NCBI GenBank assembly: GCA_001314715.1
Contig: LJSV01000020.1
Span: 1 to 40,782 of the forward strand
Source: Rhodobacteraceae bacterium HLUCCA12
GTDB lineage: Bacteria > Pseudomonadota > Alphaproteobacteria > Rhodobacterales > Rhodobacteraceae
Reading direction: 5' to 3'
Length of the DNA stretch: 40,782 nt
Shown: one piece after another, positions 20,040 to 33,898 of the stretch
Layout of the letters: every line of letters starts with the position of its first letter
Numbering within the stretch: the first letter of the stretch is position 1
Notes under the pieces: generated by a model
What the model was told of the DNA's origin: nothing
What the model saw: the letters and a program-made list of their open reading frames with translations, nothing else
Databases searched by the model: none
Program-made: the position numbers and the translations under genes

Positions 20040-21319
20040 GCAGCCTCCAGAAGCATGGCGCCGCCCTGCCCGCCGCCAATGCATTCGGTGGCGATGCCGC
20101 GGCGCTTGTTGTCGGCTTTCAGGGCGTTGGCGAGGTGCAGCACGATGCGGTTGCCGCTGGTGCCAACCGGGTGGCCAAGGCTGATCGCGCCGCCGTCGAC
20201 ATTGAGCCGGTCGCGGTCAACCCGGCCGAACGCGGCATCATAGCCCAGCACGTCGCGGCAGAAGTCATCGTCCTGCCAGGCCGCCAGACAGGCCAGCACC
20301 TGTGCCGCGAAGGCTTCGTTGATTTCCCAAAGGTCGATGTCGTCAACGTCGAGGCCGTGGCGCTGTGCCAGAGGCGTCGACGCCAGCACCGGCCCGAGCC
20401 CCATGATCGCCGGGTCCAGCGCGGCCCATTCGCTGTCGGTGATCCGTGCCAACGGGGTCAGGCCATGGGCCTCGACCGCGGTTTCCGATGCCAGCAGCAC
20501 CCAGGAGGCGCCATCGGTGATCTGGCTGGAATTGCCCGGTGTGACCTTGCCGAACGGTTTTTCAAAGGCTGGCGCCAGTTTGGCAAGCTTTTCGAGTGAG
20601 CTGTCCGGGCGCACACCGTCGTCTTGCGCGTGCACCTGTCCGTCGCGGTCGAAGGCCGGCATGACCTCGCCGGCCAGACGCCCGCTTTCCTGCGCCGCGG
20701 CAAGTCGCTTGTGACTGTCGACGGCATAGGCATCCGCCGTCGCGCGGTCGATGTTGAACCGATGCGCCAGCACTTCGGCGGTCTGGCCCATGTTCAGGTC
20801 GGTGATCGGGTCGGTCAGACCGCGCTCCAGCCCGATAATGGGTGAAAAGAAGCCTGGGCGAACCTCGGCCAGTTTCTGTGCCTTTTCGAAGGTTGATCCG
20901 GCCCGCGCCATGTCGCCGAACCATTCGGTCGCGGCGTGCCTGAAAACCAGCGGCGCATGACTCAATGCCTCGGTCCCGCCGGCCAGGATCATCTGGTGGC
21001 TGCCGTCACGGATATAGCGATAGGCCGTGTCGATGCTTTGCATCCCCGAGCCGCAATTGATCTGGACCGTGAACGCCACTGTCTGTTCGCCCAGTCCCAG
21101 CCGCAGGGCGGCGACCCGCGCGGGGTTCATCTCGTCCTGGATGACGTTGACGCACCCCAGGATCGCCAGGTCAATGGCCGAGGGCGCGAAAGGCTGGCGC
21201 ATCAAAAGCGGACGGCCGCATTGCACGGCCAGATCGACCGGGGTGAACGGGCCGGGCTTGCCGCGGGCTTTCAGGAACGGGGTGCGGGCGCCGTCAACGA
21301 TATAGACGGGTCGGCTCAT
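20036..21319 (-). CDS. fadI: Acetyl-CoA acyltransferase (thiolase), beta-oxidation
   Basis: A 427-residue thiolase that cleaves 3-ketoacyl-CoA to acetyl-CoA and a shortened acyl-CoA. The nucleophile is Cys89 in QINCGSGMQ. The His in SLGHPVGTSGNR and the C-terminal Cys in CIGGGQGGAMLLEA complete the site. The region EINEAFAAQVLACL is the usual NEAFA motif. Length and the GSGMQ variant point to the FadI type rather than FadA. Its ATG overlaps the fadE stop (ATGA), and its stop overlaps the next start in the same way, so it lies inside a translationally coupled operon. Confidence 0.94.
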   Translation of the reverse strand: MSRPVYIVDGARTPFLKARGKPGPFTPVDLAVQCGRPLLMRQPFAPSAIDLAILGCVNVIQDEMNPARVAALRLGLGEQTVAFTVQINCGSGMQSIDTAYRYIRDGSHQMILAGGTEALSHAPLVFRHAATEWFGDMARAGSTFEKAQKLAEVRPGFFSPIIGLERGLTDPITDLNMGQTAEVLAHRFNIDRATADAYAVDSHKRLAAAQESGRLAGEVMPAFDRDGQVHAQDDGVRPDSSLEKLAKLAPAFEKPFGKVTPGNSSQITDGASWVLLASETAVEAHGLTPLARITDSEWAALDPAIMGLGPVLASTPLAQRHGLDVDDIDLWEINEAFAAQVLACLAAWQDDDFCRDVLGYDAAFGRVDRDRLNVDGGAISLGHPVGTSGNRIVLHLANALKADNKRRGIATECIGGGQGGAMLLEAA

Positions 21320-23562
21320 TCGGCGGCCTCCTTGCCTGGGTCAGTTTCGGGCGGGGCGCTACCGGGGAACAGCCGCTGCAACGCCTCGGGGGTGTAGTCG
21401 TCGACGGCAATCACGCGTCGGGCGGCTTCCTCGGCCTCGGACAACTGGGCGCTGTCGGCATCCGACAGCACGCCCGCATGGCGTGCCGCGTCGGCGCTCT
21501 TGCCCAGATCGCGCAGGCGTTTTCGGATCGGCTCTACCGCGATGGCAAGGCGCCAGGCGCGCTCCAGCAGCCCCAGCCCGCTGTCAGGTGCCCCCGGATG
21601 CAGCGCGCCGATCAGCCGGTCGCGGGTTTCGCAGGGGTGATAGGTCAACATGGCCACTGCCTCGGTCAGATCGTGCGAGGGGCCGCGCGCATGCGATCCG
21701 GGGCGCACGACCAGGCGCAGGATCACGCGCGCCCAGGCGGCGGGCAGGTTGGCGATGGTTTCATCCAGCGCCCGGCCGATATCCCGAAACGATGTCTCGG
21801 CGACATACCGCACCAGCGGCAGATCGGCCTCGGGGCGGCCGTCGTCCTCCCAGCGTTTGAGGGTGGCGGCGACCAGAAACATTTCCGACAGCGCATCCCC
21901 CAGCCGGGCCGAGATCATTTCCTTGCGCTTGAGCGCGCCGCCAAGCGTCAGCAGGGCCAGATCGGCGGTGACGGCAAAGGCCGACGACCACCGCGACAGC
22001 CGCGCATAAAGATCCCTGATCTTGCCGGCATCCGCGGGCGCGTGGCCCCTGCCGGTCAGTGCCGCACCGAAGGCGCGAAAGACCGTCCTGGTCGAATGGC
22101 CGACATGCGCCCAGAAATGACGGTCGAATTCGGTCAGGGCCTTGTCGTGATCGTCCTCCTGCAGGGCCTGCATTTCCTTCAGAAGATACGGATGCGCCCG
22201 GATTGCCCCCTGGCCAAAGATGATCAGGTTGCGGGTGACGATGTTCGCGCCCTCGACCGTGATGCCGATGGGAATGGCGCGATAGACCGGCTGGAGATAG
22301 TTCAGCGGCCCATCGATCACCGACTTGCCCGAATGCACGTCCATCGCGTCGTTGACGCTGTCGCGCATGCGCTCGGTGGCGTGGTGTTTCATGATCGCTG
22401 AAACAACGGCCAGCTTGCTGCCCTGGTCCAGCGCGGCGGTCGTCAGGCGGCGGCCGGCATCGATCGCGTAGGCATTGGCGGCAATGCGCGCTATCGGCTT
22501 CTGCACACCGCCAAAGAGACCGATAGGCAGGCCGAACTGCGTGCGGATACGGGCATAGGCGCCGGTCGTATGGGCCGACAGCGCCGCCGCCGCCGCCGAC
22601 AGCGAGGGCAGCGAAATGCCGCGCCCGGCGGCCAGCGCGCTCATCAGCATCATCCAGCCGCGCCCGGCATAGTCCGGCCCGCCGATGATGTGGTCCAGCG
22701 GAATGAATACATCCTTGCCCTCGGTCGGGCCGTTCATGAACATCGTGCCCGATGGCAGGTGCCGCCGCCCGATATCGACCCCCGGCAGATCGGTGGGCAC
22801 CAGCGCGCAGGTGATGCCGATCTCGGTGGTGTCGCCCAAAAGCCCGTCTGGATCGCGCAGCTTGAAGGCCAGGCCCAGAACCGTGCAGACCGGGGCCAGC
22901 GTGATGTATCGCTTGGCCCAGTTCAGCCGGATGCCGGTGACTTCCTCGCCTTGCCACATCCCCTTGCAGACCACGCCGTCATCGACCATCGCCGAGGCGT
23001 CCGATCCGGCTTCTTCGCTGGTCAGGCCAAAGGCGGGGAGTTCCTTGCCGGAGGCCAGCCGCGGCAACCAGTGTCGCTTTTGTTGATCGGTTCCGAATTG
23101 CAGGATCAACTCGCCCGGTCCCAGCGAGTTGGGCACCATCACCGTCACCGCACCGACAACGGAGTGGCTGGAGATGTATCGCACCACCTCGGAATGCGCA
23201 TGGGCCGAGAACCCCAACCCGCCATGTTCCTTGGGGATGATCATGCCGAAAAAGCCGTGCGCGCGCATGTGCTGCCACGCCTGGGGCGGCAGATCGGCGG
23301 TGTGGCGATCTATGTCCCAACCGTCGAGCATGTTGCACAGCGCCCGGCAGGGGCCGTCGATGAAAGCCTGCTCTTCCCGGGTCAGTTCGGGCGCGGGGAC
23401 GGCGCGGAGCTTCGACCAATCGGGACGACCGGCAAACAACTCGCCCTCAAAATGCACGTCGCCAACGGCGATCGCCTCGGATTCGGTGTCGGACAGGCTG
23501 GGCAACGCAGCCCGCGCCCATGAGAAAATGCGACGCGTCACATGATCGCGGCGAAAGGTCAT
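21316..23562 (-). CDS. fadE: Acyl-CoA dehydrogenase, FadE type
   Basis: A 748-residue flavoenzyme for the first step of beta-oxidation, longer than ordinary acyl-CoA dehydrogenases and close to the E. coli FadE class. Visible parts are FGMIIPKEHGGLGFSAHAHS (about 133), AFGLTSEEAGSDASAM in the FAD/substrate region, GRGISLPSLSAAA, and ITVEGANIVTRNLIIFGQGA, which holds the expected catalytic Glu. A C-terminal extension of about 200 residues is the DUF1974-like FadE-specific part. AGGAGG precedes the start by 8 bases. It is the first gene of the four-gene operon and has a leader with a TTTGCGCAAA palindrome. Confidence 0.94.
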   Translation of the reverse strand: MTFRRDHVTRRIFSWARAALPSLSDTESEAIAVGDVHFEGELFAGRPDWSKLRAVPAPELTREEQAFIDGPCRALCNMLDGWDIDRHTADLPPQAWQHMRAHGFFGMIIPKEHGGLGFSAHAHSEVVRYISSHSVVGAVTVMVPNSLGPGELILQFGTDQQKRHWLPRLASGKELPAFGLTSEEAGSDASAMVDDGVVCKGMWQGEEVTGIRLNWAKRYITLAPVCTVLGLAFKLRDPDGLLGDTTEIGITCALVPTDLPGVDIGRRHLPSGTMFMNGPTEGKDVFIPLDHIIGGPDYAGRGWMMLMSALAAGRGISLPSLSAAAAALSAHTTGAYARIRTQFGLPIGLFGGVQKPIARIAANAYAIDAGRRLTTAALDQGSKLAVVSAIMKHHATERMRDSVNDAMDVHSGKSVIDGPLNYLQPVYRAIPIGITVEGANIVTRNLIIFGQGAIRAHPYLLKEMQALQEDDHDKALTEFDRHFWAHVGHSTRTVFRAFGAALTGRGHAPADAGKIRDLYARLSRWSSAFAVTADLALLTLGGALKRKEMISARLGDALSEMFLVAATLKRWEDDGRPEADLPLVRYVAETSFRDIGRALDETIANLPAAWARVILRLVVRPGSHARGPSHDLTEAVAMLTYHPCETRDRLIGALHPGAPDSGLGLLERAWRLAIAVEPIRKRLRDLGKSADAARHAGVLSDADSAQLSEAEEAARRVIAVDDYTPEALQRLFPGSAPPETDPGKEAAE

Positions 23563-23688
23563 GACGGTTCCTCCTGACGCACTCAACGCGTGGGAGGGTG
23601 TGGGGTTCCGTCAGCCGGGGGCTGGGTTGGTCCAGCGGGCGCGCGCAGCATGGCGCGGTCCATGATTTCGGGAGAGGTGGTTTGGGCG

Positions 23689-23834: not shown

Positions 23835-23882
23835 TTGGCTCCGGCGGTAGGGATCGAACCTACGACCAATTGATTAACAGTC
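23835..23882. repeat. Left attachment site (attL), partial copy of the tRNA-Asn 3' part
   Basis: These 48 bp are identical to 33823-33870, which is the 3' part of the intact tRNA-Asn gene from the CCA end to the anticodon loop. Beyond 23882 the match stops and the tRNA 5' half is missing, so this copy is not a functional tRNA. With the right copy it defines an integrated element with a unit length of 9,988 bp. Confidence 0.93.
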
Positions 23883-23887
23883 GATTT

Positions 23888-23983
23888 TTGACAGCTATCA
23901 GCGCCAAACGATGTAAAACTATCGTCGCACACAAAGCACTGAAAATCAATATTTCTTGACGTTCTCGGCTATCATCGTCTAAC
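23888..23983 (+). promoter_or_regulatory. Two promoter-like sites upstream of the integrase
   Basis: TTGACA at 23888 with TGTAAA at 23912 (18-bp spacer), and TTGACG at 23956 with TCTAAC at 23978 (16-bp spacer). Both point toward the integrase. The second would give a leader of about 57 bases that contains the GTTCCCC repeats. Confidence 0.4.
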
Positions 23984-23985
23984 TT

Positions 23986-24034
23986 TGGGGAACGGCGGGT
24001 ATCCGCAACTCTGTTCCCCAGACTGTTCCCCAGA
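23986..24034. repeat. GTTCCCC repeat cluster, left end of the element
   Basis: An inverted TGGGGAAC (23986-23993) is followed by two tandem 12-bp copies of CTGTTCCCCAGA (24011-24022 and 24023-24034). Similar GTTCCCC copies stand near the other end at 33719-33756. Such repeats near both ends are what arm-type integrase sites look like. In RNA, TGGGGAAC could pair with either GTTCCCCA copy, enclosing a small GCGG/CCGC stem. Confidence 0.5.
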
Positions 24035-24047
24035 AGGGCAAATTGAC

Positions 24048-25280
24048 ATGAAGCTGAAGGCGGCGACGATTGAAACGCTACAGGCGACTGACAAGCGGCA
24101 GGAAATCCCCGACGACCTTTGCACCGGCCTTTACCTGGTGGTGCAGCCTACCGGCAAAAAGAGCTGGCAAGTGCGCTACAGGCACGGCGGGGTGCATCGG
24201 CGGATGACCCTTGCGAGCTTCCCGACTCTGACACTTGCGGCGGCGCGCGTTCGGGCGCGCGAAGTCATGGCAGCGGCCAGCGAAGGGCGCGACCCTGCCG
24301 AGGAAGTGAAGGCGGCGAAGGCACCGAAGCCCGAGGACGACCGCGACAAGATCAAGACCTTGATCGGCCAGTATGACAAGCGGCACCTCAAAGGGCTGAA
24401 ATCCGGCGACGTGGTGCGGCGCGAGCTTGACCGTTTCGTGGTCAAGGAATGGGGCGAGCGGGACATTCATTCGATCACCAGGCGCGATGTGATCGACCTC
24501 TTGGACGGCATCGCGGATAGCGGGCGCGTAGTGACGGCGAACCGGGTTCGGGCCTATCTCAACAAGTTCCTGAATTGGGCGGTGGAGCGGGATATCCTGC
24601 CCCTGTCACCGGCAACCGGCGTCAAGCCGGTGGCGAAAGAGGCCAGCCGAGACCGGGTGCTGACCGATGATGAAATCCGCTGGTTCTGGCAGGCTTGCGA
24701 GGCCGAGGGCTTCCCGTGGGGGCCTCTCGGCAAGGTGCTGCTGCTGACCGGGCAACGGTTGAACGAGGCGGCGCAGATCACCGAAGGCGAAATCCGGGGC
24801 GATCTGTGGCACCTCTCGGCAGACCGGACAAAGAACGGGCGGGCGCATGACGTGCCCTTGTCGGACGCGGTGCAAGCGGTTCTCGGCGCGGTGGAGCGGA
24901 TCGAGGGGAAACCGGGCTTCATCTTCACGACGACCGGCACAACCCCCGTTAGCGGGTTCTTCAAGGCGCGGGCACATCTGGCCGAGGCGATGGAGCGGCT
25001 TGCGGCAGAGGAACGCGGCGAGGCGGTGGAAATCCCGCGCTGGACCTTTCACGATCTGCGCAGGACGGCGGCAACCGGCATGGCCCGGCTTGGCATCCCG
25101 GTGCGCGTGACCGAGGCGGTTCTAAATCACATCTCGGGCACGGGCGGCGGGATCGTCGCGGTTTATCAGCGGCACGACTATGCGGACGAAAAACGGCAGG
25201 CGCTCGAGGCTTGGGGGCGGTTCGTTCTGTCGCTGGTGCAAGGCCAGCCCGACAACGTGGTGCGGCTTTCCCATGGCTGA
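24048..25280 (+). CDS. int: Tyrosine-type site-specific integrase of the element
   Basis: A 410-residue phage/island integrase. An N-terminal arm-binding domain of the DUF4102 type covers about residues 1-95 (DLCTGLYLVVQPTGKKSWQV). A core-binding SAM-like domain is at about 100-190, and the catalytic domain runs from about 200. The catalytic set is Arg237 (TGQRLNEA), Lys262 (RTKNG), His335 and Arg338 (FHDLRRT), His361 (LNHISG) and Tyr373 (AVYQRHDY). It lies 165 bp inside attL and would recombine the tRNA-Asn site. The Met of MKLKAATIET was chosen because AAGGG lies upstream and the family starts there; an earlier Met at 23985 would run through the repeats. Confidence 0.95.
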   Translation: MKLKAATIETLQATDKRQEIPDDLCTGLYLVVQPTGKKSWQVRYRHGGVHRRMTLASFPTLTLAAARVRAREVMAAASEGRDPAEEVKAAKAPKPEDDRDKIKTLIGQYDKRHLKGLKSGDVVRRELDRFVVKEWGERDIHSITRRDVIDLLDGIADSGRVVTANRVRAYLNKFLNWAVERDILPLSPATGVKPVAKEASRDRVLTDDEIRWFWQACEAEGFPWGPLGKVLLLTGQRLNEAAQITEGEIRGDLWHLSADRTKNGRAHDVPLSDAVQAVLGAVERIEGKPGFIFTTTGTTPVSGFFKARAHLAEAMERLAAEERGEAVEIPRWTFHDLRRTAATGMARLGIPVRVTEAVLNHISGTGGGIVAVYQRHDYADEKRQALEAWGRFVLSLVQGQPDNVVRLSHG

Positions 25281-25959
25281 CCTTTGTTCCATGGAGGAAA
25301 TCCGAAGCATTTGCGCCGAAGTGGCGGGCGTTGATCTAATATCATGCGATCAGCCGACGGCGCAGGAAATCAATCGTCAAGCATTTGCGATTTTTGGATC
25401 AGCACTGCCTTTAGCTTGGGAGAACCCGAGCAAGATCGAGACGGAAATAGACGGGATAATCCGTGATATTCGGAAACTTCGTCAACGCATTATCGCGCTT
25501 GATGGCTATGCGAAGTCACTGGCGAGGAAACATGCTGTAAGAGAAAAGGAACAGGAAATCCTCGATAGTATTGTGGCCTCGGCGGGCGACTCTGAAAAAA
25601 TGGCAGAGGCTGTCAGGCAATTCGACGAATTTAGCAAGCGACCTAAAGAGCTTTGGGTTGATATTGCGGCACTGTCGCACCTCGATGCCTTGGAGCAAGC
25701 GTTGACCGGACCCGCCGAAGTGGCAATCGCGGCTACTCCACCGGGTGCAGGCAGGCGACCAAACCGCCGCGCCTACCGGGTTGCCCTGGTAGCGGCTCGG
25801 GTTTTCCAAGATTTGACCGGCACTAATCCGACATTCTGGAACGGCGGCGAAACTCCATTCAGTAGGATGGTGGCCAAAATCTACAGATGTGCGGGGATCA
25901 AGGCTGACCTTCGCAAGCCTATCGAAGCGGCTATGCACGAATTGTCGGGTGCAAGCTGA
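25273..25959 (+). CDS. Unknown protein, accessory gene next to the integrase
   Basis: A 228-residue soluble protein I do not recognise. Residues about 40-85 look like a coiled coil (IETEIDGIIRDIRKLRQRII). A hinge rich in Ala, Pro and Gly (TPPGAGRRPNRRAYRV, about 155-170) leads to a C-terminal domain with FQDLTGTNPTFWNGGETPFS and KIYRCAGIKADL. Codon use is less GC-biased than in its neighbours, which suggests a separate origin. Its ATG overlaps the integrase stop by 8 bp, so it is expressed with or just after int. Position between integrase and regulator is typical for cargo genes of satellites, but no defence or other function can be assigned. Confidence 0.75.
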   Translation: MADLCSMEEIRSICAEVAGVDLISCDQPTAQEINRQAFAIFGSALPLAWENPSKIETEIDGIIRDIRKLRQRIIALDGYAKSLARKHAVREKEQEILDSIVASAGDSEKMAEAVRQFDEFSKRPKELWVDIAALSHLDALEQALTGPAEVAIAATPPGAGRRPNRRAYRVALVAARVFQDLTGTNPTFWNGGETPFSRMVAKIYRCAGIKADLRKPIEAAMHELSGAS

Positions 25960-26002
25960 ATTTGGGCATTTAGCTTTCGGCTCGGCCAATGGATTACTTG
26001 GG

Positions 26003-26028
26003 TATCACGTTCTAACAAGAGGCGTGAT
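26003..26028. promoter_or_regulatory. Inverted repeat TATCACG/CGTGATG before alpA (candidate operator)
   Basis: ATCACG (26004-26009) and CGTGAT (26023-26028) face each other just before the AlpA start, flanking the ribosome site AGAGG. TATCACGT here is the reverse complement of ACGTGATA at 27943-27950 upstream of the packaging genes, so both may be sites for one regulator. Confidence 0.4.
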
Positions 26029-26031
26029 GCT

Positions 26032-26232
26032 ATGGAAAACAAGCTGATATCCGCAAATGCGGTGCGCGACCTGTGCGGCGGTGTGTCTGACATGACCCTG
26101 TGGCGCTGGCTCAATGACTCCGATCTTGCCTTCCCGAAGGCGGTTTACATCGGGAAGCGGCGCTATTTCCGCGAGGCCGAAATCTCCGCCTGGATCGAGG
26201 CGCAGGCCGAGGCATCGCGGGGTGCCGCATAA
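26032..26232 (+). CDS. alpA: AlpA-family transcriptional regulator / excisionase
   Basis: A 66-residue winged helix-turn-helix protein of the AlpA/MerR-like type. The pattern SANAVRDLCGGVSDMTLWRW, then FPKAVYIGKRRYFREAEI and AWIEAQ, is the classic AlpA layout. In P4-like and PICI-type satellites, AlpA proteins control integrase/excision and the switch to replication. AGAGG lies upstream of the ATG. It overlaps the next gene by one base (TAATG). A role as excisionase here is inferred from family and context. Confidence 0.9.
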   Translation: MENKLISANAVRDLCGGVSDMTLWRWLNDSDLAFPKAVYIGKRRYFREAEISAWIEAQAEASRGAA

Positions 26233-26678
26233 TGACCTCGGAAAACGAAACCCCCGGCGCGGCTGGCACCGCGACCGAGGGCGAATTTGAAACCGGGCAG
26301 GTTCCGCCAATAGAATACCGTATCCGCAAGGAATGGGCAAACGCGGCGTGGTTCGCGCTCGACCATTGCGACCCGCAAGACGTGGCCCATATCTGCGCGA
26401 CCTGCCTTGCCGAGCTGGAAACCGGCGGGCCTGTCATGGGTGATCTGCTGGGCACCGTGACGGGGGATGCGCTATTCTGGGCAGACTGTGCCCCCCCGCA
26501 TGAGCTTGCGGCCTATGGCTGCGCGGCGCTGGACCGGCTGCGCGGCCTGGCGCTCGGATTGAACACCCGCAAGCGGCTGTTTGCCCGGCTCTGGGAAACC
26601 TTTGACCCGAAGGACCGGCAAGCCTTCCTGACGCGCGTTGATGCCGAGGGGCGGTTCCTGCGCAGGGGGGCGGCATGA
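26232..26678 (+). CDS. Unknown small protein of the element
   Basis: A 148-residue protein with a disordered acidic N terminus (about 1-25) and a predicted helical body (YRIRKEWANAAWFALDH to the end). It contains several Cys (HICATCLAEL, WADCAPPHELAAYGCAAL) without a clear zinc-finger spacing. I do not recognise a family. It is wedged between alpA and the ATPase gene with overlaps at both ends (TAATG and ATGA), so it belongs to the same transcript. It does not resemble a small terminase, although that activity has no other visible candidate. Confidence 0.7.
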   Translation: MTSENETPGAAGTATEGEFETGQVPPIEYRIRKEWANAAWFALDHCDPQDVAHICATCLAELETGGPVMGDLLGTVTGDALFWADCAPPHELAAYGCAALDRLRGLALGLNTRKRLFARLWETFDPKDRQAFLTRVDAEGRFLRRGAA

Positions 26679-27877
26679 ACGTGCATCACGACCCCTTCGC
26701 CGATCTGCCCCCGGCGGATGACATGCCCCCGGATGATCGGTTCGGCCCGGCCATGGAAGGCAATAACCGCGCCGCACCTGCCAAGCCCTTTCCCTTTGTT
26801 GCCGTGGGAGATCTGGAATACCACCCGCCCGAGTTTCTGATTGATGGCCTGATCGAAACCGACACGCTGGGCCTGATCTTCGGTGATCCGGGCTGCGGCA
26901 AATCCTTCATGGCAGTTGACCTTGCCCTGAGTGTCGCGTCCGGGGCCGAATTTCACGGGCGCGGCGTCAAGCAAGGCGCGGTGTTCTACATCGCAGGCGA
27001 GGGACACAACGGGCTTGTGCGGCGGTTCGTGGCGTGGGCCAAGCATCGAGGCCGGGGGCTGCAATCCGTGCCGATGTTCAAATCTGAGCGGGCGGCGCAG
27101 TTTCTCGACGGCGCATCGGCAATGGCTGTTGCGCATTCGGTGGATGCTCTGGCGGCGCAGCATGGTGCCCCTGTGCTGATCGTGGTGGACACGCTGGCGC
27201 GTAACTTCGGCCCGGGCGATGAAAACTCGACTTCCGAAATGGGGGCCTTTGTCGCTGCAATGGATGATCTGAAAGCGCGGTATCCCGGCTGCGTTCTGCT
27301 GATCGTTCACCATTCGGGACATGCCGAGAAACAGAGGGCGCGCGGGGCAATGGCCCTGAAAGGTGCGCTTGATTTTGAATACCGACTTGAAAAGGATGGC
27401 CCGTCCCTGACGCTGGCAAACACCAAAATGAAGGATGCCGAACCGCCTGCCGATCTGTTCTTTTCGCTGATCACCGTTGATCTGGACGGCAGCGTAACAA
27501 GTGCCGTGCTGACGGCGACAGATGCCCCCGAACGGCGCGAGAAAATAACCCCGGCGCAGCGAGTGGCCCTGTCCACCTATGAAGCCGCTGCGAAAGAACA
27601 TGGCGTCTGGGATGATGGCGCGTTTCGTGGCGTTCATCTTGACCACTGGCGGGATGCCTTCTACGCCAAGCACACCGGCGACACGACAGATGCAAAGAAG
27701 AAAGCCTTTCAGCGGGTGCGGGCTGATCTGGCCGAGGCCGGGCGCATCGAAGCCACTGACGACTTTTACCTGATCCGTGATTCTTCCATTCAGTTAGCAA
27801 TCGTTATGCATCGGGACAAGCGGGCCAAAGCGGGCCATGTCCCGGCCTGTCCCGGGCCAAGCGGGCCACACCCCTAA
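26675..27877 (+). CDS. RepA-like AAA ATPase, predicted replicative helicase of the element
   Basis: A 400-residue protein of the AAA_25/RepA class. The Walker A motif GDPGCGKS is at residues 70-77, Walker B is VLIVVDTLA with Asp172, and the KaiC/RecA-like core ends near VHHSGHAEKQRARG. The C-terminal 100 residues look like a winged-helix DNA-binding part. There is no primase domain. Its 3' end overlaps a set of short repeats and is followed by an AT-rich stretch, so it probably starts replication at a nearby origin. It overlaps the upstream gene by 4 bases. Confidence 0.85.
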   Translation: MNVHHDPFADLPPADDMPPDDRFGPAMEGNNRAAPAKPFPFVAVGDLEYHPPEFLIDGLIETDTLGLIFGDPGCGKSFMAVDLALSVASGAEFHGRGVKQGAVFYIAGEGHNGLVRRFVAWAKHRGRGLQSVPMFKSERAAQFLDGASAMAVAHSVDALAAQHGAPVLIVVDTLARNFGPGDENSTSEMGAFVAAMDDLKARYPGCVLLIVHHSGHAEKQRARGAMALKGALDFEYRLEKDGPSLTLANTKMKDAEPPADLFFSLITVDLDGSVTSAVLTATDAPERREKITPAQRVALSTYEAAAKEHGVWDDGAFRGVHLDHWRDAFYAKHTGDTTDAKKKAFQRVRADLAEAGRIEATDDFYLIRDSSIQLAIVMHRDKRAKAGHVPACPGPSGPHP

Positions 27878-27962
27878 GGGGTGGCCCGTGTCCCGGCAGG
27901 GTTTCAGCCGATTTGCCAATGTCCCGCTGCCCCTGTTAGGTAACGTGATAAAGTGATATAGT
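27812..27962. other. Candidate replication origin: iteron-like repeats plus AT-rich stretch
   Basis: TGTCCCG occurs at 27838, 27848, 27889 and 27920, and inverted as CGGGACA at 27812. GCGGGCC occurs at 27820, 27830 and 27861, and inverted at about 27883. An imperfect hairpin CGGGCCACACCCCT/AGGGGTGGCCCG spans the ATPase stop. An AT-rich segment (27941-27962) with two adjacent GTGATA copies follows. This repeat-plus-AT-rich layout next to a Rep-type gene is typical of origins. It could also include a terminator or operator. Confidence 0.5.
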
Positions 27963-27997
27963 TATCAACCATTTGCGCCTGATTTATCATGCGGCGC

Positions 27998-28303
27998 ATG
28001 GATGTGTTCGATCTTCTTTCCGATGCCAAGGCTCATGCGCGTGTCGATCATAACGACGACGACGCGGGCATTGCGCTGATGCTCTCGGCGGCGGCGGCTG
28101 ATGTGGCAGCGGCGGCAGAGTATGACTTGCCCGAGGATGCGGACGATCTGCCCGCCGATCTGCGCTTTGCGATCATCGACCAAGTGGCCCTGCTCTATGA
28201 TGCGCGCGGCGGTGACACTGACCGGCCCGTGGGCCTGTCGCTGGCCGCAAGCCGGATCGTCGCGCGATATCGCGGGGTGCGCATGTGTCCTGCCAATCCG
28301 TGA
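27998..28303 (+). CDS. Phage gp6-like head-tail connector protein
   Basis: A 101-residue protein with the layout of HK97 gp6/SPP1 gp15-type connectors. It is an all-helical chain beginning DLLSDAKAHARVDHNDDDAGIALMLSAAAADV and containing the DLRFAIIDQVALLYDARG helix that packs in the dodecameric ring. It would sit below the portal in the assembled head. It is the first gene of the packaging block and follows the candidate origin by about 35 bp. No strong ribosome site is seen; a Met three codons upstream is possible. Its stop overlaps a GTG start of the terminase gene. Confidence 0.82.
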   Translation: MDVFDLLSDAKAHARVDHNDDDAGIALMLSAAAADVAAAAEYDLPEDADDLPADLRFAIIDQVALLYDARGGDTDRPVGLSLAASRIVARYRGVRMCPANP

Positions 28304-29946
28304 CCGGCCTCGGGCATCGCATGATGCAGACCGACCTTTTCGGTTCTGGTCCCAATGCCCCCGGTTCAGGGTGGCAGGGGACCGACGGTCGGACTGTTGC
28401 TTTCTCTCTCCTGGAAAAAATCCGGGGGGAAATTGCGGCAGATCGGGCGATGGCCTTCCTCGAGCTGTTGCACATTCCCGAGGGCAAGAAAGCGGGCACC
28501 CCTCTGCGGCTGGCCGAGTTTCAGCGCAAATTCGTTCGCGGCGCTCTGGCCGATGGTGTCATGGTGGCCTGTCTGTCGATCGGGCGCGGCAACGCGAAAA
28601 CGGCGCTCTCGGCGGGGCTGGCGCTCGGCGCGCTTGTCGGCGTCTGGGACGATCAGCCCAAGCGGGAAATCTTGTTCGCAGCCCGGAACCGGGATCAGGC
28701 GAAAACCGCTTTCGGGTTTCTTGTCGGGTTCGTCGAGGGCTTGCCCGAGGAAGATCGGGCGCAATTCACGATCCGGCGCGGCTCAAAGCTCGAGGTGGAG
28801 TTTGAAGGCAACGGCGGCGGGCTGGCCCGCGTCATTGCGGCGGACGGCAAGTCGGTTCTGGGCGGTGCCCCGACGCTGGCCTTGATGGATGAACGGGCGG
28901 CATGGGAACGCGGCAAGGGCGACGACCTGGAAAACGCGATCCTCTCGGGCCTCGGCAAGCGCGATGGCCGGGCGCTGATTATCTCGACCTCGGCACCGGA
29001 CGACGCGAACACCTTTTCCCGATGGTTGGATGAACCCCCGCCGGGAACGTATGTGCAGGAACACCGGCCCGCGTTCGGGCTTCCCGCCGATGATCTGGCA
29101 TCACTACTCGAGGCCAACCCCGGCGCGACCGAAGGCATCGGCGCGACCCCTGACTGGCTGGTGGCGCAGGCTCGGCGCGCGATTGCGCGCGGCGGTTCGG
29201 CGCTCTCGAGCTTTCGCAACCTCAATCGGAATGAGCGGATCAGCTCCGAAGATCGTTCGGTGCTGGTGACGGTTGACGAATGGCTGTCGGCAGAGGTTTC
29301 CCCCGATCAGCTTCCCGAACGGGCCGGGCCTTGCGTCCTGGGCGTTGACCTCGGCGGTTCCCGTTCCATGAGTGCCGCGGCCTTCTATTGGCCCGACACT
29401 GGCAGGCTCGAGGCGCTAGGCACATTCCCGGCTATCCCGTCTCTTGCGGATCGTGGGGCGGCGGATGGCGTCTCTGACCGCTATGTGCAGATGAACGACC
29501 GGGGCGAGCTGTCTGTGATGGGCGAGGCAACCGTGCCCCCCGGCCCGTGGCTGGCTGAGATCGTGCGGCACCTGGACGGGGCCGAGGTGGCTTGCATCGT
29601 GGGCGACCGATTCCGCCATGCCGAGTTTTCCGAGGCCATGCAGGCTGCGGGCCTTGCGCGGGTTCCGTTCGTCTGGCGCGGGTTCGGGTGGAAGGACGGT
29701 TCCGAGGATATCGAGCGGTTCCGGCGGGCCTTGTTCGATGGCGAGATTGTTGTTGCCCCTTCCATGCTTCTGCGCTCGGCGTTCTCGGATGCGATCACGC
29801 TGGTTGACCCTGCGGGCAATCACAAGCTGGCGAAGGCGCGTTCTCTTGGCCGGATCGACGCGGCGGCGGCAACCGTGCTGGCCGTTGCGCAGGGTGCCCG
29901 GATGAAGGCGGCTCCGGCCCGAAAGGTCAGGATGGCATGGCTATGA
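28300..29946 (+). CDS. terL: Phage terminase large subunit
   Basis: A 548-residue DNA-packaging motor. The ATPase part has a deviant Walker A, SIGRGNAKTAL (about 93-103), and Walker B LALMDERAAW (Asp197, Glu198). SVLGGAPTLALMDE and LIISTSAPDDANTF are the usual neighbours. The nuclease part shows Asp residues in VLGVDLGGSRSM, CIVGDRFRHAEF and GRIDAAAATVLAV. The GTG at 28300 gives the 4-base overlap seen at other joints of this block; GTG at 28285 or ATG at 28321 are alternatives. It would translocate element DNA into heads formed by the capsid gene downstream. Confidence 0.92.
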   Translation: MTGLGHRMMQTDLFGSGPNAPGSGWQGTDGRTVAFSLLEKIRGEIAADRAMAFLELLHIPEGKKAGTPLRLAEFQRKFVRGALADGVMVACLSIGRGNAKTALSAGLALGALVGVWDDQPKREILFAARNRDQAKTAFGFLVGFVEGLPEEDRAQFTIRRGSKLEVEFEGNGGGLARVIAADGKSVLGGAPTLALMDERAAWERGKGDDLENAILSGLGKRDGRALIISTSAPDDANTFSRWLDEPPPGTYVQEHRPAFGLPADDLASLLEANPGATEGIGATPDWLVAQARRAIARGGSALSSFRNLNRNERISSEDRSVLVTVDEWLSAEVSPDQLPERAGPCVLGVDLGGSRSMSAAAFYWPDTGRLEALGTFPAIPSLADRGAADGVSDRYVQMNDRGELSVMGEATVPPGPWLAEIVRHLDGAEVACIVGDRFRHAEFSEAMQAAGLARVPFVWRGFGWKDGSEDIERFRRALFDGEIVVAPSMLLRSAFSDAITLVDPAGNHKLAKARSLGRIDAAAATVLAVAQGARMKAAPARKVRMAWL

Positions 29947-30281
29947 GCGGCGCAGCCAAACTTGATCGGCGGGTGCAATTCCAGCGGTTCACGCTGGTTG
30001 ATGACGGGTTCGGAATGACCGAGGTTTGGGCCGATCACGGTTCCCCCGTCTCGGCATTGCGCACCGATGTTTCGGACATGGAAAAGGCGACGGCGGGCAG
30101 TATCGAGGCCAGCCTGTTGTCGCGCTTCGTGGTGCGCTCGACCGGCTTCACCCGCGATCTGGACCCGAAAGACCGCCTGACCCAAGGCGGGCTGACCTGG
30201 AACATTCTCGGGATCAAGGAAGCCAAGGACGGGCGGCACCGCTTTCTCGAAATCACGGCGAGGGCGCGCACTGATGGCTAG
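29943..30281 (+). CDS. Phage head closure / head-tail joining protein
   Basis: A 112-residue beta-rich protein of the head-tail joining family (SPP1 gp16/HK97 gp7-like). The opening AAKLDRRVQFQRFTLVDDGFGMTEVW and the middle RFVVRSTGFTRDLDPKDRLTQGG with WNILGIKE are typical of this family. It would close the head below the connector and offer the surface on which a helper tail docks. The Met overlapping the terminase stop (ATGA) was taken; a Met two codons earlier exists. Its own stop overlaps the HNH start. Confidence 0.85.
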   Translation: MSGAAKLDRRVQFQRFTLVDDGFGMTEVWADHGSPVSALRTDVSDMEKATAGSIEASLLSRFVVRSTGFTRDLDPKDRLTQGGLTWNILGIKEAKDGRHRFLEITARARTDG

Positions 30282-30609
30282 AACCCGCAAGGACTTTGCC
30301 CGCTATTCGCGGCCCGTTCTGAAAACCCGGCGCTGGCAAGTGCTGCGGCACCAAATCCTCAAGCGTGACGGCTGGAAGTGCCGGTGCTGCGGCGAGCGGC
30401 GGCGGCTCGAGGTGGATCACGTCCAGCCGGTGCGCAATGCCCCGGAACGGGCGTTCGATCCGGCGAACCTGCAAGTTCTATGCGCGGGCTGTCACACCCG
30501 CAAAACCCGTATCGAGTGTGGGCACAAGCCCCCCGATCCAAAGCGCCAAGCGTGGCGCGAAGCTGTTGCCGATCTGGCGGCGGAAACCGAAACCCCGGCT
30601 ATGGAGTAA
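30274..30609 (+). CDS. HNH endonuclease of the packaging module
   Basis: A 111-residue HNH nuclease with CRCCGE and CAGCHTRKT as zinc-binding Cys pairs, LEVDHVQPVRNAP with the catalytic His, and an Asn in FDPANLQVLC. HNH proteins next to terminase genes in HK97-type phages assist cos cleavage by the terminase complex. Their presence suggests cos-type packaging. The ATG overlaps the previous stop by 8 bp. It is unrelated to the chromosomal HNH protein at 3073. Confidence 0.92.
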   Translation: MARTRKDFARYSRPVLKTRRWQVLRHQILKRDGWKCRCCGERRRLEVDHVQPVRNAPERAFDPANLQVLCAGCHTRKTRIECGHKPPDPKRQAWREAVADLAAETETPAME

Positions 30610-30612
30610 GAA

Positions 30613-31878
30613 ATGCTGGACTCTGTGAAGATTGCCAAACGGCAAAGCGAAATCCGCCAAGGGCTTGCGGCTCTGGCGGGCAAGGAAAAACCGACCGAGG
30701 ATGAAGTGCGCCAGATGGGCGACCTCGACCGGGAATATCAGACCAATGAAACCCGCTATCGCGCGGCGCTGGTGGCCGAGGATGGCGAGCGGCGCGAGGC
30801 GGGCCGGGATCTGGAAACCCGCTCCGATGTGCAATGGCGCGAGCTGGTGCAGGGCTTCGAGCTGCGGCAAGCGGTGCTGTCGCTGGACGAGGGCAAGGCG
30901 CTGTCGGGCAAGACCGCCGAAGTGGTGCAGGAATTGCGCAACGCGGGCGGATATCGCGGCATCCCGGTTCCGCTTCTGGCGCTCGAGCAACGGGCGGGCG
31001 AAACGATTGCCTCGGGCACCCCGGACCCGCTGCAAACCCGCCCGATCATTGATCGGCTGTTCCCTGCCTCTGTCGCGGCGCAGATGGGCGTTCAGCTCAT
31101 TACCGTGGGCAGCGGGGCGATTGAATGGCCGGTGACGACCTCGGCGGTGACGGCGGGCTGGGCCGATGGCGAGCTTGCCAATGTGGCCGGGCCGACCGTC
31201 TATGCGACGACCGACAAGGCGCTGAAACCGGAACAAACCCTCGGCATCCACATGCGGATCAGCCGCAAGGCCATGATGCAGTCGGGCGATGCTCTGGAAT
31301 CGGCAATCCGGCGCGACATGGCCGGGACCATGCAAGCCGAGCTGGACAAGGCGATTTTCCGAGGCACGGGTGCCGATGGGCAACCCCTTGGCGTCATTCC
31401 GGGCGTGGCGACCTACGGCATCACCTCGACCGATGCGGCGGGTTCCGCGTCCTGGGCGGCTCTGCGGGCGGCTGTGGTGCGGTTCATGACCGCCAATGCG
31501 GCGGCAGGGCCGGGCGCGGTGCGCGCACTGATCCGGCCCGAGCTGTGGAGCTTCCTTGATGGCTTGATGGTCGGTGATGGCGGGTTCAAGTTCGAGTTTG
31601 ACCGGCTGAAAGAAAATCTCGGCGGCATCGTCATGTCGTCCAATGCGCTTGCGGCGCCGGCTGGTGGCCCGCCGCTGGAAACCCAAGTGCTGCTGACGAC
31701 CAATGCGGGCGGCGTTGCCCCTGTCTTTGTCGGCATCTGGGGGGCGTTCGATCTGATCCGCGACGTCTATTCGGATGCGCAATCCGGCGGGCTGCGGCTG
31801 ACGGCATTGACGACCGCTGACGTGACCGTGGCGCGCGGTTCGCAGCTCGAGCTTGTGACCGGGCTGGAGCTGGCTTGA
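30613..31878 (+). CDS. Major capsid protein, HK97 fold
   Basis: A 421-residue capsid precursor. Residues about 1-105 form a charged, coiled-coil delta/scaffold part (KIAKRQSEIRQGLAALAGKE to RELVQGFELR). The capsid domain begins near TPDPLQTRPIIDRLFP. Typical blocks follow: ATTDKALKPEQTLGIHMRIS, ELDKAIFRGTGADGQPLGV, a P-domain region and a C-terminal GAFDLIRDVYSDAQSGGLRL. GGAG precedes the ATG. The protease gene downstream would remove the delta part. An element-encoded capsid is the strongest sign of a capsid-forming satellite rather than a capsid-stealing one. Confidence 0.93.
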   Translation: MLDSVKIAKRQSEIRQGLAALAGKEKPTEDEVRQMGDLDREYQTNETRYRAALVAEDGERREAGRDLETRSDVQWRELVQGFELRQAVLSLDEGKALSGKTAEVVQELRNAGGYRGIPVPLLALEQRAGETIASGTPDPLQTRPIIDRLFPASVAAQMGVQLITVGSGAIEWPVTTSAVTAGWADGELANVAGPTVYATTDKALKPEQTLGIHMRISRKAMMQSGDALESAIRRDMAGTMQAELDKAIFRGTGADGQPLGVIPGVATYGITSTDAAGSASWAALRAAVVRFMTANAAAGPGAVRALIRPELWSFLDGLMVGDGGFKFEFDRLKENLGGIVMSSNALAAPAGGPPLETQVLLTTNAGGVAPVFVGIWGAFDLIRDVYSDAQSGGLRLTALTTADVTVARGSQLELVTGLELA

Positions 31879-32432
31879 TGCTCTGGGGCGGTAATCTCGG
31901 CGCTCTGGACGTTCGCAGCGATGGCGGGGAAACCCGCCTTCGCGCGAGCTTCCCTTATGGTGCGCAAACCGAGCTGGCACCGGGGCGGCATGAGGTTATC
32001 GCCCCTCGGGCCTTCGCAGACCGGATCGACGCGGGCGAGGATATTCACCTGCTGTTCGGCCATAGCTTCGACAAGCCTCTGGCCTCGAGGGCGGCGGGCA
32101 CCCTGACCTTGGCCGACACTGACGCGGCGCTTGTCCTGGAAGCCCGGATCGACGGCGGCACGTCCTGGGCGCGCGATTTTCTGGCGGCTCATGCAAGCGG
32201 CCTGATCCGGGGCTTGTCGCCTGGGTTCCGCGTCCAGCCGGGCGGGGAACGGATCGAGCGGCGCGGCGCGGACTATCTGCGCACCGTCATGCGCGCGGCG
32301 CTGTTCGAGCTGTCGGCAGTCACCCGGCCCGCCTACAGCCAAGCGCAGATCGAGGCGCGATGCTGGGCTGAAAACAGTGGTGCCACAACTTGTGGCACGA
32401 CCGTTCACCCCCTGAAACGCTGGAGGCTTTGA
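31878..32432 (+). CDS. HK97-family prohead protease
   Basis: A 184-residue serine protease of the herpesvirus/HK97 assembly type. The catalytic His lies in LLFGHSFDKPLASR (about residue 56), the Ser in LIRGLSPGFRV, and an acidic partner probably in the ELSAVTRPAY region. The family block APRAFADRI is also present. It would cut the capsid precursor before head expansion. The ATG overlaps the capsid stop (TGATG). It lies after the capsid gene and before the portal gene, the reverse of the classical HK97 order. Confidence 0.9.
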   Translation: MLWGGNLGALDVRSDGGETRLRASFPYGAQTELAPGRHEVIAPRAFADRIDAGEDIHLLFGHSFDKPLASRAAGTLTLADTDAALVLEARIDGGTSWARDFLAAHASGLIRGLSPGFRVQPGGERIERRGADYLRTVMRAALFELSAVTRPAYSQAQIEARCWAENSGATTCGTTVHPLKRWRL

Positions 32433-32433
32433 C

Positions 32434-33516
32434 ATGGGCTTGATGGATATTTTCCGGCGCAGAACGTCGGAGCGCACCGACAATCCCGAAACCCGGTCAT
32501 CTGGCATGGGCTACACGGCGCAGATCATGGCGGCGCGGCAATCCTTCATCACCGGGGCCTCTGGCCTTGGCGAATTGACCTCGGCGGTTCAATCCTGCGT
32601 CACCCTCTGGGAAGGCGGCTTGTCGCTGGCCGATGTGAAGGGCACCGACCTGTTGACCCGGCGGGCACTGGCAATCACGGCCCGCGCTCTGGCCTTGCGG
32701 GGCGAGGCGGTGTTCCTGATCCGTGACAAGCTGATTCCGGCCTCTGACTGGGATGTGACGACCCGCAACGGCGATCCGCGATCCTACCGGCTGCAAATCT
32801 CCGAGGCGGGCGGCGGGCGATCCGAAATCGCGCTGGCCGGTGAAGTGCTGCACTTTCGTATCGGTTCCGATGCCGTGATGCCCTGGGCGGGTTCTGCCCC
32901 CCTGCGGCGTTCGCAGCTTTCGGCGCAACTGCTGGCCGAGGTGGAAACGGCGATCCGCGACGTGTTCCGCGATTCGCCCCTAGGCAGTCAAATCGTGCCC
33001 GTGCCCGAAGGCTCAGCGGATGACATGGACGGCTTGCGGCGTTCGTTCATCGGGCGGCGCGGCTCGGCAATCGTGATCGAGGGCGTGGCGCAAGCTGTCG
33101 GCGCGGGGATGCACCCGCAACTCGGCAAGGGGCCGGATCAGCTTTCCCCCGATCTGTCGCGGACCCTGGCCGACAAGTTCCTAACCGAAGCCAAGGGCGC
33201 GATCTATTCCGCGTTCGGCATCCTGCCCGGCCTGCAAAACCCGGCGACAACCGGGCCGATGGTGCGCGAGGCGCAGCGGCACCTTGCGCAGCTCATCTTG
33301 CAGCCGATTGCCGGGCAGATGGCCGAGGAAGCCTCGGAAAAGCTCGGCGGGCCTGTCCAGATTGACGTTGTGCGACCGATGCAGGCTTTCGACGCGGGCG
33401 GCAAGGCGCGGGCGCTGGCAACGATGGTGGCGGCGCTGGCGCAGGCCAAGGAAGCCGGGATCGAGGGCGCGACCCTGCAAGACGCGCTGGCCTTCATTGA
33501 TTGGGCGGATGAATGA
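32434..33516 (+). CDS. Phage portal protein, HK97 family
   Basis: A 360-residue portal subunit, slightly short for the family. Recognisable parts are the N-terminal MGLMDIFRRR, VQSCVTLWEGGLSLADV (clip/wing entry), the central VLHFRIGSDAVMPWAGSAPL and GAIYSAFGILPGLQNPATTGPMVREAQRHL, the conserved C-terminal stem/crown portion. The ring would form the DNA entry vertex bound by the terminase. It starts one base after the protease stop and its own stop overlaps the YodC-like gene (ATGA). Missing length at the C-terminal crown is possible. Confidence 0.9.
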   Translation: MGLMDIFRRRTSERTDNPETRSSGMGYTAQIMAARQSFITGASGLGELTSAVQSCVTLWEGGLSLADVKGTDLLTRRALAITARALALRGEAVFLIRDKLIPASDWDVTTRNGDPRSYRLQISEAGGGRSEIALAGEVLHFRIGSDAVMPWAGSAPLRRSQLSAQLLAEVETAIRDVFRDSPLGSQIVPVPEGSADDMDGLRRSFIGRRGSAIVIEGVAQAVGAGMHPQLGKGPDQLSPDLSRTLADKFLTEAKGAIYSAFGILPGLQNPATTGPMVREAQRHLAQLILQPIAGQMAEEASEKLGGPVQIDVVRPMQAFDAGGKARALATMVAALAQAKEAGIEGATLQDALAFIDWADE

Positions 33517-33692
33517 CCATGACCAAGAATGACCTGAAACCCGGCGACCTGGTGCAACTCAAGAGCGGCGGGCCGGTGATGACCTATGAGGGCGAAGCCT
33601 ACATGACCGGCGATGCGCTCTGCTGCTGGTTCGACGGCGGCAAGCGGATGCGCGAGGGCTTCACCTTCGCGGCCTTGAAGCGGGCAGAGTAG
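33513..33692 (+). CDS. YodC-family (DUF2158) small protein
   Basis: A 59-residue protein with the family pattern LKPGDLVQLKSGGPVMTYEG, then CCWFDGGKRMREGFTFAALK. DUF2158 proteins are small beta proteins without established function, found in chromosomes and mobile elements. Here the gene overlaps the portal stop by 4 bases and is the last gene of the capsid transcript. It may be cargo or a minor head factor; neither is shown. Confidence 0.8.
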   Translation: MTMTKNDLKPGDLVQLKSGGPVMTYEGEAYMTGDALCCWFDGGKRMREGFTFAALKRAE

Positions 33693-33718
33693 CCCGATTC
33701 ATCGGTGGCGCTGGGCGC

Positions 33719-33756
33719 GTTCCCCCGCTTTCGACCTGTTCCCCCCGTGTTCCCCA
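33719..33756. repeat. GTTCCCC repeat cluster, right end of the element
   Basis: Three copies of GTTCCCC lie at 33719, 33738 and 33749, 70-100 bp inside the right attachment repeat. They match the repeats beside the integrase at 23986-24034. This paired placement suggests arm-type integrase or excision-factor sites. Confidence 0.5.
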
Positions 33757-33771
33757 ATGCGCAAACGAGAA

Positions 33772-33791
33772 AAGCCCCCGCGAGGGGGCTT
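33772..33791 (-). terminator. Intrinsic terminator of tRNA-Asn, inside the element
   Basis: AAGCCCCC and GGGGGCTT form an 8-bp stem with a 4-base loop. On the minus strand it is followed by TTTTCTC, as expected for intrinsic termination downstream of the tRNA. On the plus strand it would also stop capsid-operon read-through. It belongs to the element side of the right junction. Confidence 0.75.
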
Positions 33792-33822
33792 GCTCTTAAA
33801 TCCTTGGTATTTCTGGGTTTTT

Positions 33823-33870
33823 TTGGCTCCGGCGGTAGGGATCGAACCTACGACCAATTGATTAACAGTC
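33823..33870. repeat. Right attachment site (attR), 48-bp direct repeat
   Basis: Identical to 23835-23882. It covers the CCA end, T arm and anticodon region of the intact tRNA-Asn. After integration the tRNA 5' half is chromosomal and the 3' half comes from the crossover region, so the tRNA gene stays whole. Confidence 0.93.
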
Positions 33871-33898
33871 AACTGCTCTACCGCTGAGCTACGCCGGA
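33824..33898 (-). tRNA. tRNA-Asn (anticodon GTT)
   Basis: Acceptor strands TCCGGCG and CGCCGGA pair over 7 bp, with discriminator G and an encoded CCA. The D arm is AGCTCAGCGGTAGAGC, the anticodon loop reads CTGTTAA with anticodon GTT, and the T arm holds GGTTCGATCC. This is the attachment gene of the integrated element and it is intact. Confidence 0.97.

Follow-up and report, generated by a model that had tools for sequence, protein, structure and literature searches.

What kind of element is formed when a set of phage head genes lies, with no recognised tail, between two perfect repeats at a tRNA gene? The question is raised by a 40,782-nucleotide stretch of Rhodobacteraceae bacterium HLUCCA12 (contig LJSV01000020.1, positions 1 to 40,782 of the forward strand; hereafter the window), in which two 48-bp direct repeats, the attachment (att) sites attL (23835-23882) and attR (33823-33870), are identical over all 48 bp. 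The right repeat is the 3′ part of a tRNA-Asn (GTT) gene (33824-33898, minus strand), the integration target named in a preliminary description made from the letters of the window. That description gave the unit as 9,988 bp between perfect repeats; the repeats are indeed perfect, but 9,988 bp is their spacing, and the full element spans 10,036 bp. We consider it probable, at roughly 0.8, that this is an apparently complete, mobile phage satellite working like a capsid-forming phage-inducible chromosomal island (cf-PICI), one that would make its own head and borrow its tail.

The 13 genes between the repeats all lie on the plus strand, and their proteins were compared with PHROGs and Pfam (13 of 13) and with NCBIfam (10 of 13). 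The head and packaging block consists of a short-form head-tail adaptor Ad1 of 101 amino acids (aa) (27998-28303; phrog_40, 2.1e-14; TIGR01560, 1e-12; PF05135), the 548-aa large terminase TerL (28300-29946; phrog_9, 1.8e-55; PF03354 and PF20441), the head-closure protein Hc1 (29943-30281; phrog_25, 4.2e-15; PF05521, 1e-11), an HNH endonuclease (30274-30609; phrog_144, 2.9e-21; PF01844), an HK97-type major capsid protein (30613-31878; PF05065, 1.2e-12; phrog_617, 2.9e-21), a prohead protease of the Peptidase S78 family (31878-32432; PF04586, 3.6e-21; TIGR01543 above cut-off) and a portal protein (32434-33516). Near the left repeat is a tyrosine integrase (24048-25280; 410 aa from its likely start; phrog_1, 1.9e-65; PF13356, PF00589, PF22022), followed by a 66-aa AlpA-type regulator or excisionase (26032-26232; HTH_17; PF05930 at 21.9 bits against a cut-off of 21; phrog_66, 7.2e-7) and an AAA_25 ATPase that resembles RepA/helicase-type replication proteins (26675-27877; PF13481, 2.2e-36; phrog_906, 6e-49). 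The integrase, AlpA, the ATPase, adaptor, TerL, head closure, HNH, capsid and protease all passed their Pfam cut-offs, in agreement with the preliminary assignments, although the integrase start had been put at 23985 and a simple gene finder places it at 24048; the family scan of this protein started from 23985. The window's portal alone scores only 22.4 bits with PF04860, under the cut-off of 39.1, and a PDB profile search with it gave no match. Across the family, however, PF04860 is matched by 29 of 31 portals at E <=0.01 (best 3.6e-13), and on this basis we take the gene as the portal, as had been proposed. The element's TerL has a single match in the 3.73-Mb, 52-contig genome, namely the element itself. 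No tail, lysis or phage-repressor protein was recognised among the 13 proteins, which agrees with the absence reported earlier.

The element belongs to a large family. A search with the capsid returned 20 loci in named genomes and 75 viral contigs (given L numbers below), and capsid matches occur in 58 of 394 Rhodobacteraceae genomes, with identity of at least 50% in 40 of 394 (a hand count that includes the strain's own genome and some partial-length matches). Relatives are present in about 10% of the sampled species of this bacterial family. Genomes labelled Citromicrobium (77% capsid identity, metagenome assembly), Erythrobacter (metagenome assembly) and Mesorhizobium hold members too, and the family seems to cross bacterial orders. 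We searched for flanking repeats at spacings of 8-16 kb in stretches of about 20 kb, accepting repeats of at least 20 bp, or of at least 13 bp where they overlapped a tRNA gene. Repeats were found in 45 of 63 loci tested; subtracting L004, where the repeat is an assembly overlap, leaves 44, and removing three duplicates leaves 41 distinct elements. The preliminary description had suggested looking for the same gene set with clean att ends, and many relatives do share the plan. A tRNA gene marks the site of 36 of the 41 (Asn, Cys, Glu, Gln, Leu, Lys, Arg, Thr, Pro, Phe, Ser or Ala). Their median span is 10,431 bp, with 39 of 41 within 9.0-11.4 kb, and for the subset with repeats of at least 20 bp (n=30), 28 are within 9.3-11.4 kb. 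Eighteen loci gave no repeats; many of them stop at a contig edge or close to one, and four that are full-length (L170, L171, L182 and L187) keep the plan, with about 10 kb from orf4 or the adaptor to the integrase.

Gene order is also kept: TerL, HNH, capsid, protease and portal follow one another in this order wherever all five are recognised. Even in relatives with only about 30% capsid identity (L156-L158), an integrase is present along with the TerL, capsid, protease and portal genes, and no tail module was recognised. The head and packaging set is under purifying selection, with ratios of nonsynonymous to synonymous substitution (dN/dS) of 0.05-0.57 across 47 computed gene pairs against six relatives. 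For the two closest relatives (L026 and L023), the ratio is lowest in TerL and HNH or capsid, and highest in head closure, which is the tail-facing part.

Some members depart from this pattern in ways worth recording. The two larger repeat-bounded elements are L127 and L185. The first, on a 1.58-Mb plasmid replicon of Pseudorhodobacter turbinis (NZ_CP039965.1), is a 13.8-kb satellite with two integrase genes, perhaps an element within an element. In L185, judging by gene sizes, a three-gene set seems to be repeated outside the element, and we have taken this set for a transposon; transposase families do occur among the scanned accessory proteins, in matches that do not name the carrier locus. 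L159 (G116:C5) is more distant. Its genes include int, AlpA, capsid and protease, plus a portal-like one akin to the gene transfer agent (GTA)-like portal; its 18-bp repeat is less certain, and it perhaps represents another lineage. The integrase is at the portal end, beside the tRNA gene or right repeat, in many relatives (L003, L005, L006, L009, L012 and others), and at the far end in the window.

Several assemblies bear on whether such elements move. L025 is a viral contig from a metagenome, with a capsid 98% identical to that of the window. It runs from the right end of the element through one att copy into the left end, and these ends are 92% and 97% identical to the window. This join is an attP-type junction, from either a circle or a tandem. 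Moreover, L004 (Gemmobacter serpentinus NODE_42) closes as a 10,340-bp circle with a 96-bp terminal overlap, and L021 closes as a 10,093-bp circle with an overlap of 141 bp. Two further contigs (L078 and L079) are circularly permuted with no terminal overlap, which is compatible with circles but is not proof of them. The attP-type junction and the two circular contigs together show mobility. Five of 39 loci (L004, L014, L021, L055 and L079) have no member of the integrase cluster, a count for which part of their large unassigned proteins was scanned. Some family members, such as the circles L004 and L021 with no recognised integrase, may exist as episomes. The record title of L004 gives an assembler coverage of 941, and this contig is perhaps a high-copy episome. 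At the tRNA loci of the same genus, the exact 48 bp are found in 11 of 14 cases, with at least 1.2 kb beyond the att site in view for 7 of those 11, and neither the element ends nor the element proteins match at any of the 14. The tRNA site thus exists without the element.

The preliminary description had named, as evidence that would speak against it, close relatives in which the block is continuous with tail and lysis genes. Representative accessory proteins of relatives were compared with PHROGs, 57 of 71 in one set and 42 of 47 in another, with 25 of 50 and 25 of 63 matched families listed. The remainder comprised 14 of 71 representatives, some resembling integrases, antisense frames or cut ends and two of them scanned by Pfam, and 5 of 47 short ones. 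Within these limits, no relative showed the head block joined to a tail or lysis module. The narrow size of the elements leaves little space for one. A 180-aa protein found between protease and portal in another subtype of the family gave no useful sequence match, and has a neck-like fold at weak Foldseek scores (best E 2.4e-4, template modelling (TM) score 0.47).

How would such an element propagate? During growth of a tailed helper in its host cell, the element would excise and replicate with its own AAA_25 protein while building its own small procapsids. TerL with the HNH protein would package one 10-kb unit into these, the adaptor and head-closure protein would close the neck, a helper tail would dock there, and the helper would lyse the cell. 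The narrow size of the family members, at about 10 kb, suggests that the capsid sets the genome length. The HK97 capsid has T=7 geometry, and scaling by volume from HK97 (39.7 kb) gives estimates of about 11 kb for a T=3 shell and about 17 kb for T=4.

A number of observations weigh against a complete, helper-dependent satellite. No small terminase (TerS) was recognised in the 13 window genes by PHROGs or Pfam, or in the 10 of 13 compared with NCBIfam. The sole TerS-named match shown is that of the HNH protein to a PHROG called 'terminase small subunit', which extends over the HNH domain (2.7e-14). No helper was identified either, and the strain's lambda-like tail lineage, traced by its tail terminator, occurs in 16 of 40 satellite genomes (carriers counted by hand) versus 97 of 354 others, a difference that is not significant (p=0.10), with 24 of 40 carriers lacking it. 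The tail scan of relatives covered the representatives and listed families given above, so that rare matches may be hidden, and L079 carries a 569-aa tail tape measure (L079:2846-4555) between its portal and DUF2158 genes. Among the tail families listed, the E-values are the same as those of this tape measure alone, and a search of the viral contigs for further tape-measure satellites found only L079 itself. A protein of L004 (8046-8414) has a weak PhageMin_Tail match (17.9 bits, cut-off 33.2), and one of L171 is 34% identical over 67 aa to a prophage tape measure; both we take for coiled-coil similarity. The size distribution comes from a repeat search confined to spacings of 8-16 kb within roughly 20-kb stretches; of the 41 repeats, 11 measure only 15-19 bp and were accepted for their tRNA overlap, such that a few could be due to chance. 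Finally, the gene to the left of the element in the window is absent beside the tRNA-Asn site in all 14 same-genus loci. Because this neighbour differs at every one of them, we do not claim a clean pre-integration pair, even though the site itself exists without the element. The gene in question (21316-23586) is acyl-CoA-dehydrogenase-like, and this flank may be rearranged or hold an older insertion.

The lack of a recognised TerS leads to a variant that otherwise shares every step of the mechanism above, namely a satellite that packages without its own TerS or with that of its helper. The failure to recognise TerS in the window genes is as this variant expects, and the match of the HNH protein to a TerS-named family is also in its favor. 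However, TerS proteins diverge fast, and genes of 148 aa or 222 aa in the element could encode one. The 148-aa product is too poorly modelled to tell (predicted local distance difference test score, pLDDT, of 47), and a PDB sequence search for a TerS gave a best E-value of 0.36. The element could therefore still carry a divergent TerS, and we regard the TerS-less variant as a serious possibility that we do not favor.

Candidate helpers reside in the same genome. A cluster at about 101-114 kb of G000:C36 (L134) has genes for a portal, a capsid, a protease and an adaptor whose relatives are found in many satellites; we take it to be GTA-like from gene order and sizes typical of such clusters, together with the matches of its portal, capsid and adaptor. 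The genome also contains two prophage regions of lambda-like siphovirus type, at about 83-112 kb of G000:C50 (L135 and L136) and about 10-33 kb of G000:C26 (L137 and L138), which are related to each other, sharing 13 proteins at 42-78% identity. All three regions are resident helper candidates only. In the part of the cf-PICI literature that reports such a test, EcCIEDL933 was mobilised at detectable frequency by 0 of 17 native prophages, a warning against inferring a helper from residence (PMC11389934). In a comparison with these three regions, the GTA-like cluster gave the best match for 21 of 31 family adaptors (not dereplicated), the two lambda-like regions for none, and the L079 tape measure is 48% identical over 83 aa to a 218-aa protein of the cluster. 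Because of these matches, one may ask whether the family is a deep alphaproteobacterial lineage of head-only satellites docking onto RcGTA-type tails, perhaps those of a resident GTA acting as an ever-present helper. The short adaptor of the window has no match to the cluster, though. Of 17 head-closure proteins of that type, just one matched it, over 33 aa, and we think this scenario improbable.

Could the element instead be no satellite at all? A decayed prophage, formerly a complete siphovirus and since deprived of tail, lysis and regulation genes, would explain the HK97-type head genes, and any satellite must derive from a phage at some time. Yet the preliminary description had already set clean ends and unbroken frames against decay, and the findings agree: the att repeats are perfect, the frames are open, the genes are under purifying selection, 41 repeat-bounded relatives are of nearly one size, and circular forms exist among them. 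Nor does the phage collection searched, of 50,697 records, hold a close match to this head module by TerL, capsid or portal. The TerL is about 30% identical to phage TerL (best 25 of 66 matching records), the capsid matches 15 records at no more than 34% identity over no more than 39% of its length, and the portal matches none. The nearest capsid relatives found are other elements of the same plan. Decay of a prophage is accordingly among the least likely explanations. Much the same can be said of a domesticated, GTA-like particle maker that packages host DNA. The HK97-type head set and the related adaptor of 173-195 aa in many relatives do distantly resemble the strain's GTA-like cluster, including those adaptors with best matches there. 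GTAs, however, have tails, lack an integrase and att sites, and package host DNA, whereas this element has an integrase and att sites, no recognised tail genes, circular relatives and a patchy distribution, in a genome that already possesses a separate GTA-like cluster with portal and capsid; we give this explanation hardly any weight.

A self-sufficient virus whose particles infect without a helper tail is a little less remote, though still very unlikely. It would fit the recognised structural genes, which are those of head and neck only, and the occurrence of both integrated and circular forms. In its favor, too, filamentous and tailless prophages below 16 kb are reportedly common in marine Vibrio (PMC11630473). 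But among the genes of the element are those for an adaptor and a head-closure protein, which usually serve to join a tail; the fold of the 180-aa protein in the other subtype resembles that of phage neck proteins, if at weak scores; and no lysis gene was recognised.

Within the satellite, replication and packaging appear to be separable modules. L023 and L026 share the packaging block with the window at 86-99% identity, but their replication gene is only 29-37% identical. The preliminary description had placed a repeat-rich candidate origin here. Short, G+C-rich repeats of 10-11 bp, possible iterons, do exist at 27818-27859, but they are modest and are not seen in relatives with another replication gene. 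The adjacent AT-rich stretch (about 27935-27997) is kept in L023, L026 and L094 despite their divergent replication gene (29-37% identical), and is hence more likely to serve the packaging block than to be an origin. This segment, 27935-27997, opens the packaging block and contains GTGATAAAGTGATATAGTTATCAA; its 24-bp core is identical in L022, L023, L024, L026 and L094. The replication gene differs from that of the window in L023, L026 and L094, is the same in L022 and lies off the contig in L024. The segment is a candidate (late) promoter or operator of the block, or possibly a cohesive-end (cos) site.

The remaining genes are less informative. The slot between int and alpA varies among loci, and in the window it holds a 222-aa gene with no assigned family (25291-25959, scanned from 25180), which has weak matches only and was a singleton when proteins of the loci were clustered. 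A conserved 148-aa protein with no assigned function (26232-26678) belongs to a cluster with members at 17 of 39 loci (counting the window, and without dereplication), and its structure model, of low confidence, is all-helical. A small DUF2158 protein (33513-33692; PF09926, 7e-11) precedes the right repeat.

How does the element compare with known systems? The original cf-PICI paper is reportedly that of Alqurainy et al. 2023, and cf-PICIs carry an integrase with a specific att site and AlpA; their known capsids fall into three radiations, and a temperate helper induces them and supplies their tails. The element likewise has an integrase with its att site and clean ends, and an AlpA that just passes its cut-off. 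According to those parts of the literature that describe cf-PICIs such as EcCIEDL933 (PMC10690885, PMC10803314, PMC11389934), these islands encode capsid, protease, portal, connectors, both terminases and HNH (PMC10690885), have hosts that are primarily enterobacterial and Gram-positive, Pasteurella included, and average 14 kb (PMC10803314). The element shares their capsid, protease, portal, connectors, TerL and HNH and has no tail genes, but differs in having no recognised TerS, in its size of 10 kb, and in belonging to a family with circular relatives that lack a recognised integrase. We therefore do not apply the class label that the preliminary description had given it, as TerS was not recognised, the comparison is by description rather than by sequence, and no helper was identified; what stands of that proposal is an apparently complete, mobile, tail-less, head-encoding element with many relatives of the same plan. 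MulchRoom and MiniFlayer, satellites of Streptomyces phages, similarly have head and packaging genes of their own and need a helper, as the element presumably does, but are described in the relevant passages of PMC10690885 as having linear genomes with terminal repeats, virulent helpers and no obvious replicase. Streptomyces records made up 0 of the 15 capsid matches and none for the portal, in a phage collection whose content of MulchRoom and MiniFlayer was unchecked. P4-like satellites and classical PICIs, including the Staphylococcus aureus pathogenicity islands (SaPIs), are also small, helper-dependent chromosomal islands, but P4 and SaPIs remodel the capsid of their helper, as outlined in PMC10690885, whereas the element encodes its own. 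From a complete temperate phage, the element differs in that tail, lysis and repressor genes were not recognised. Judged by titles and abstract openings, in a search that did not take in the original cf-PICI paper, we found no prior description of such elements in Rhodobacteraceae.

Capsid-forming satellites came to light only recently, and most descriptions concern enterobacterial and Gram-positive hosts. In this major bacterial family the same strategy now appears in about 10% of the species sampled, and a few other Alphaproteobacteria have it too; the capsid lineage involved lacks a close counterpart among the phage records searched. The tight 10-kb size and the swappable replication modules offer concrete handles on the persistence of a minimal, head-only element and on the tails it uses. 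Packaging with no recognised TerS, circular forms with no recognised integrase, and a tape measure borne by a satellite provide further ones.

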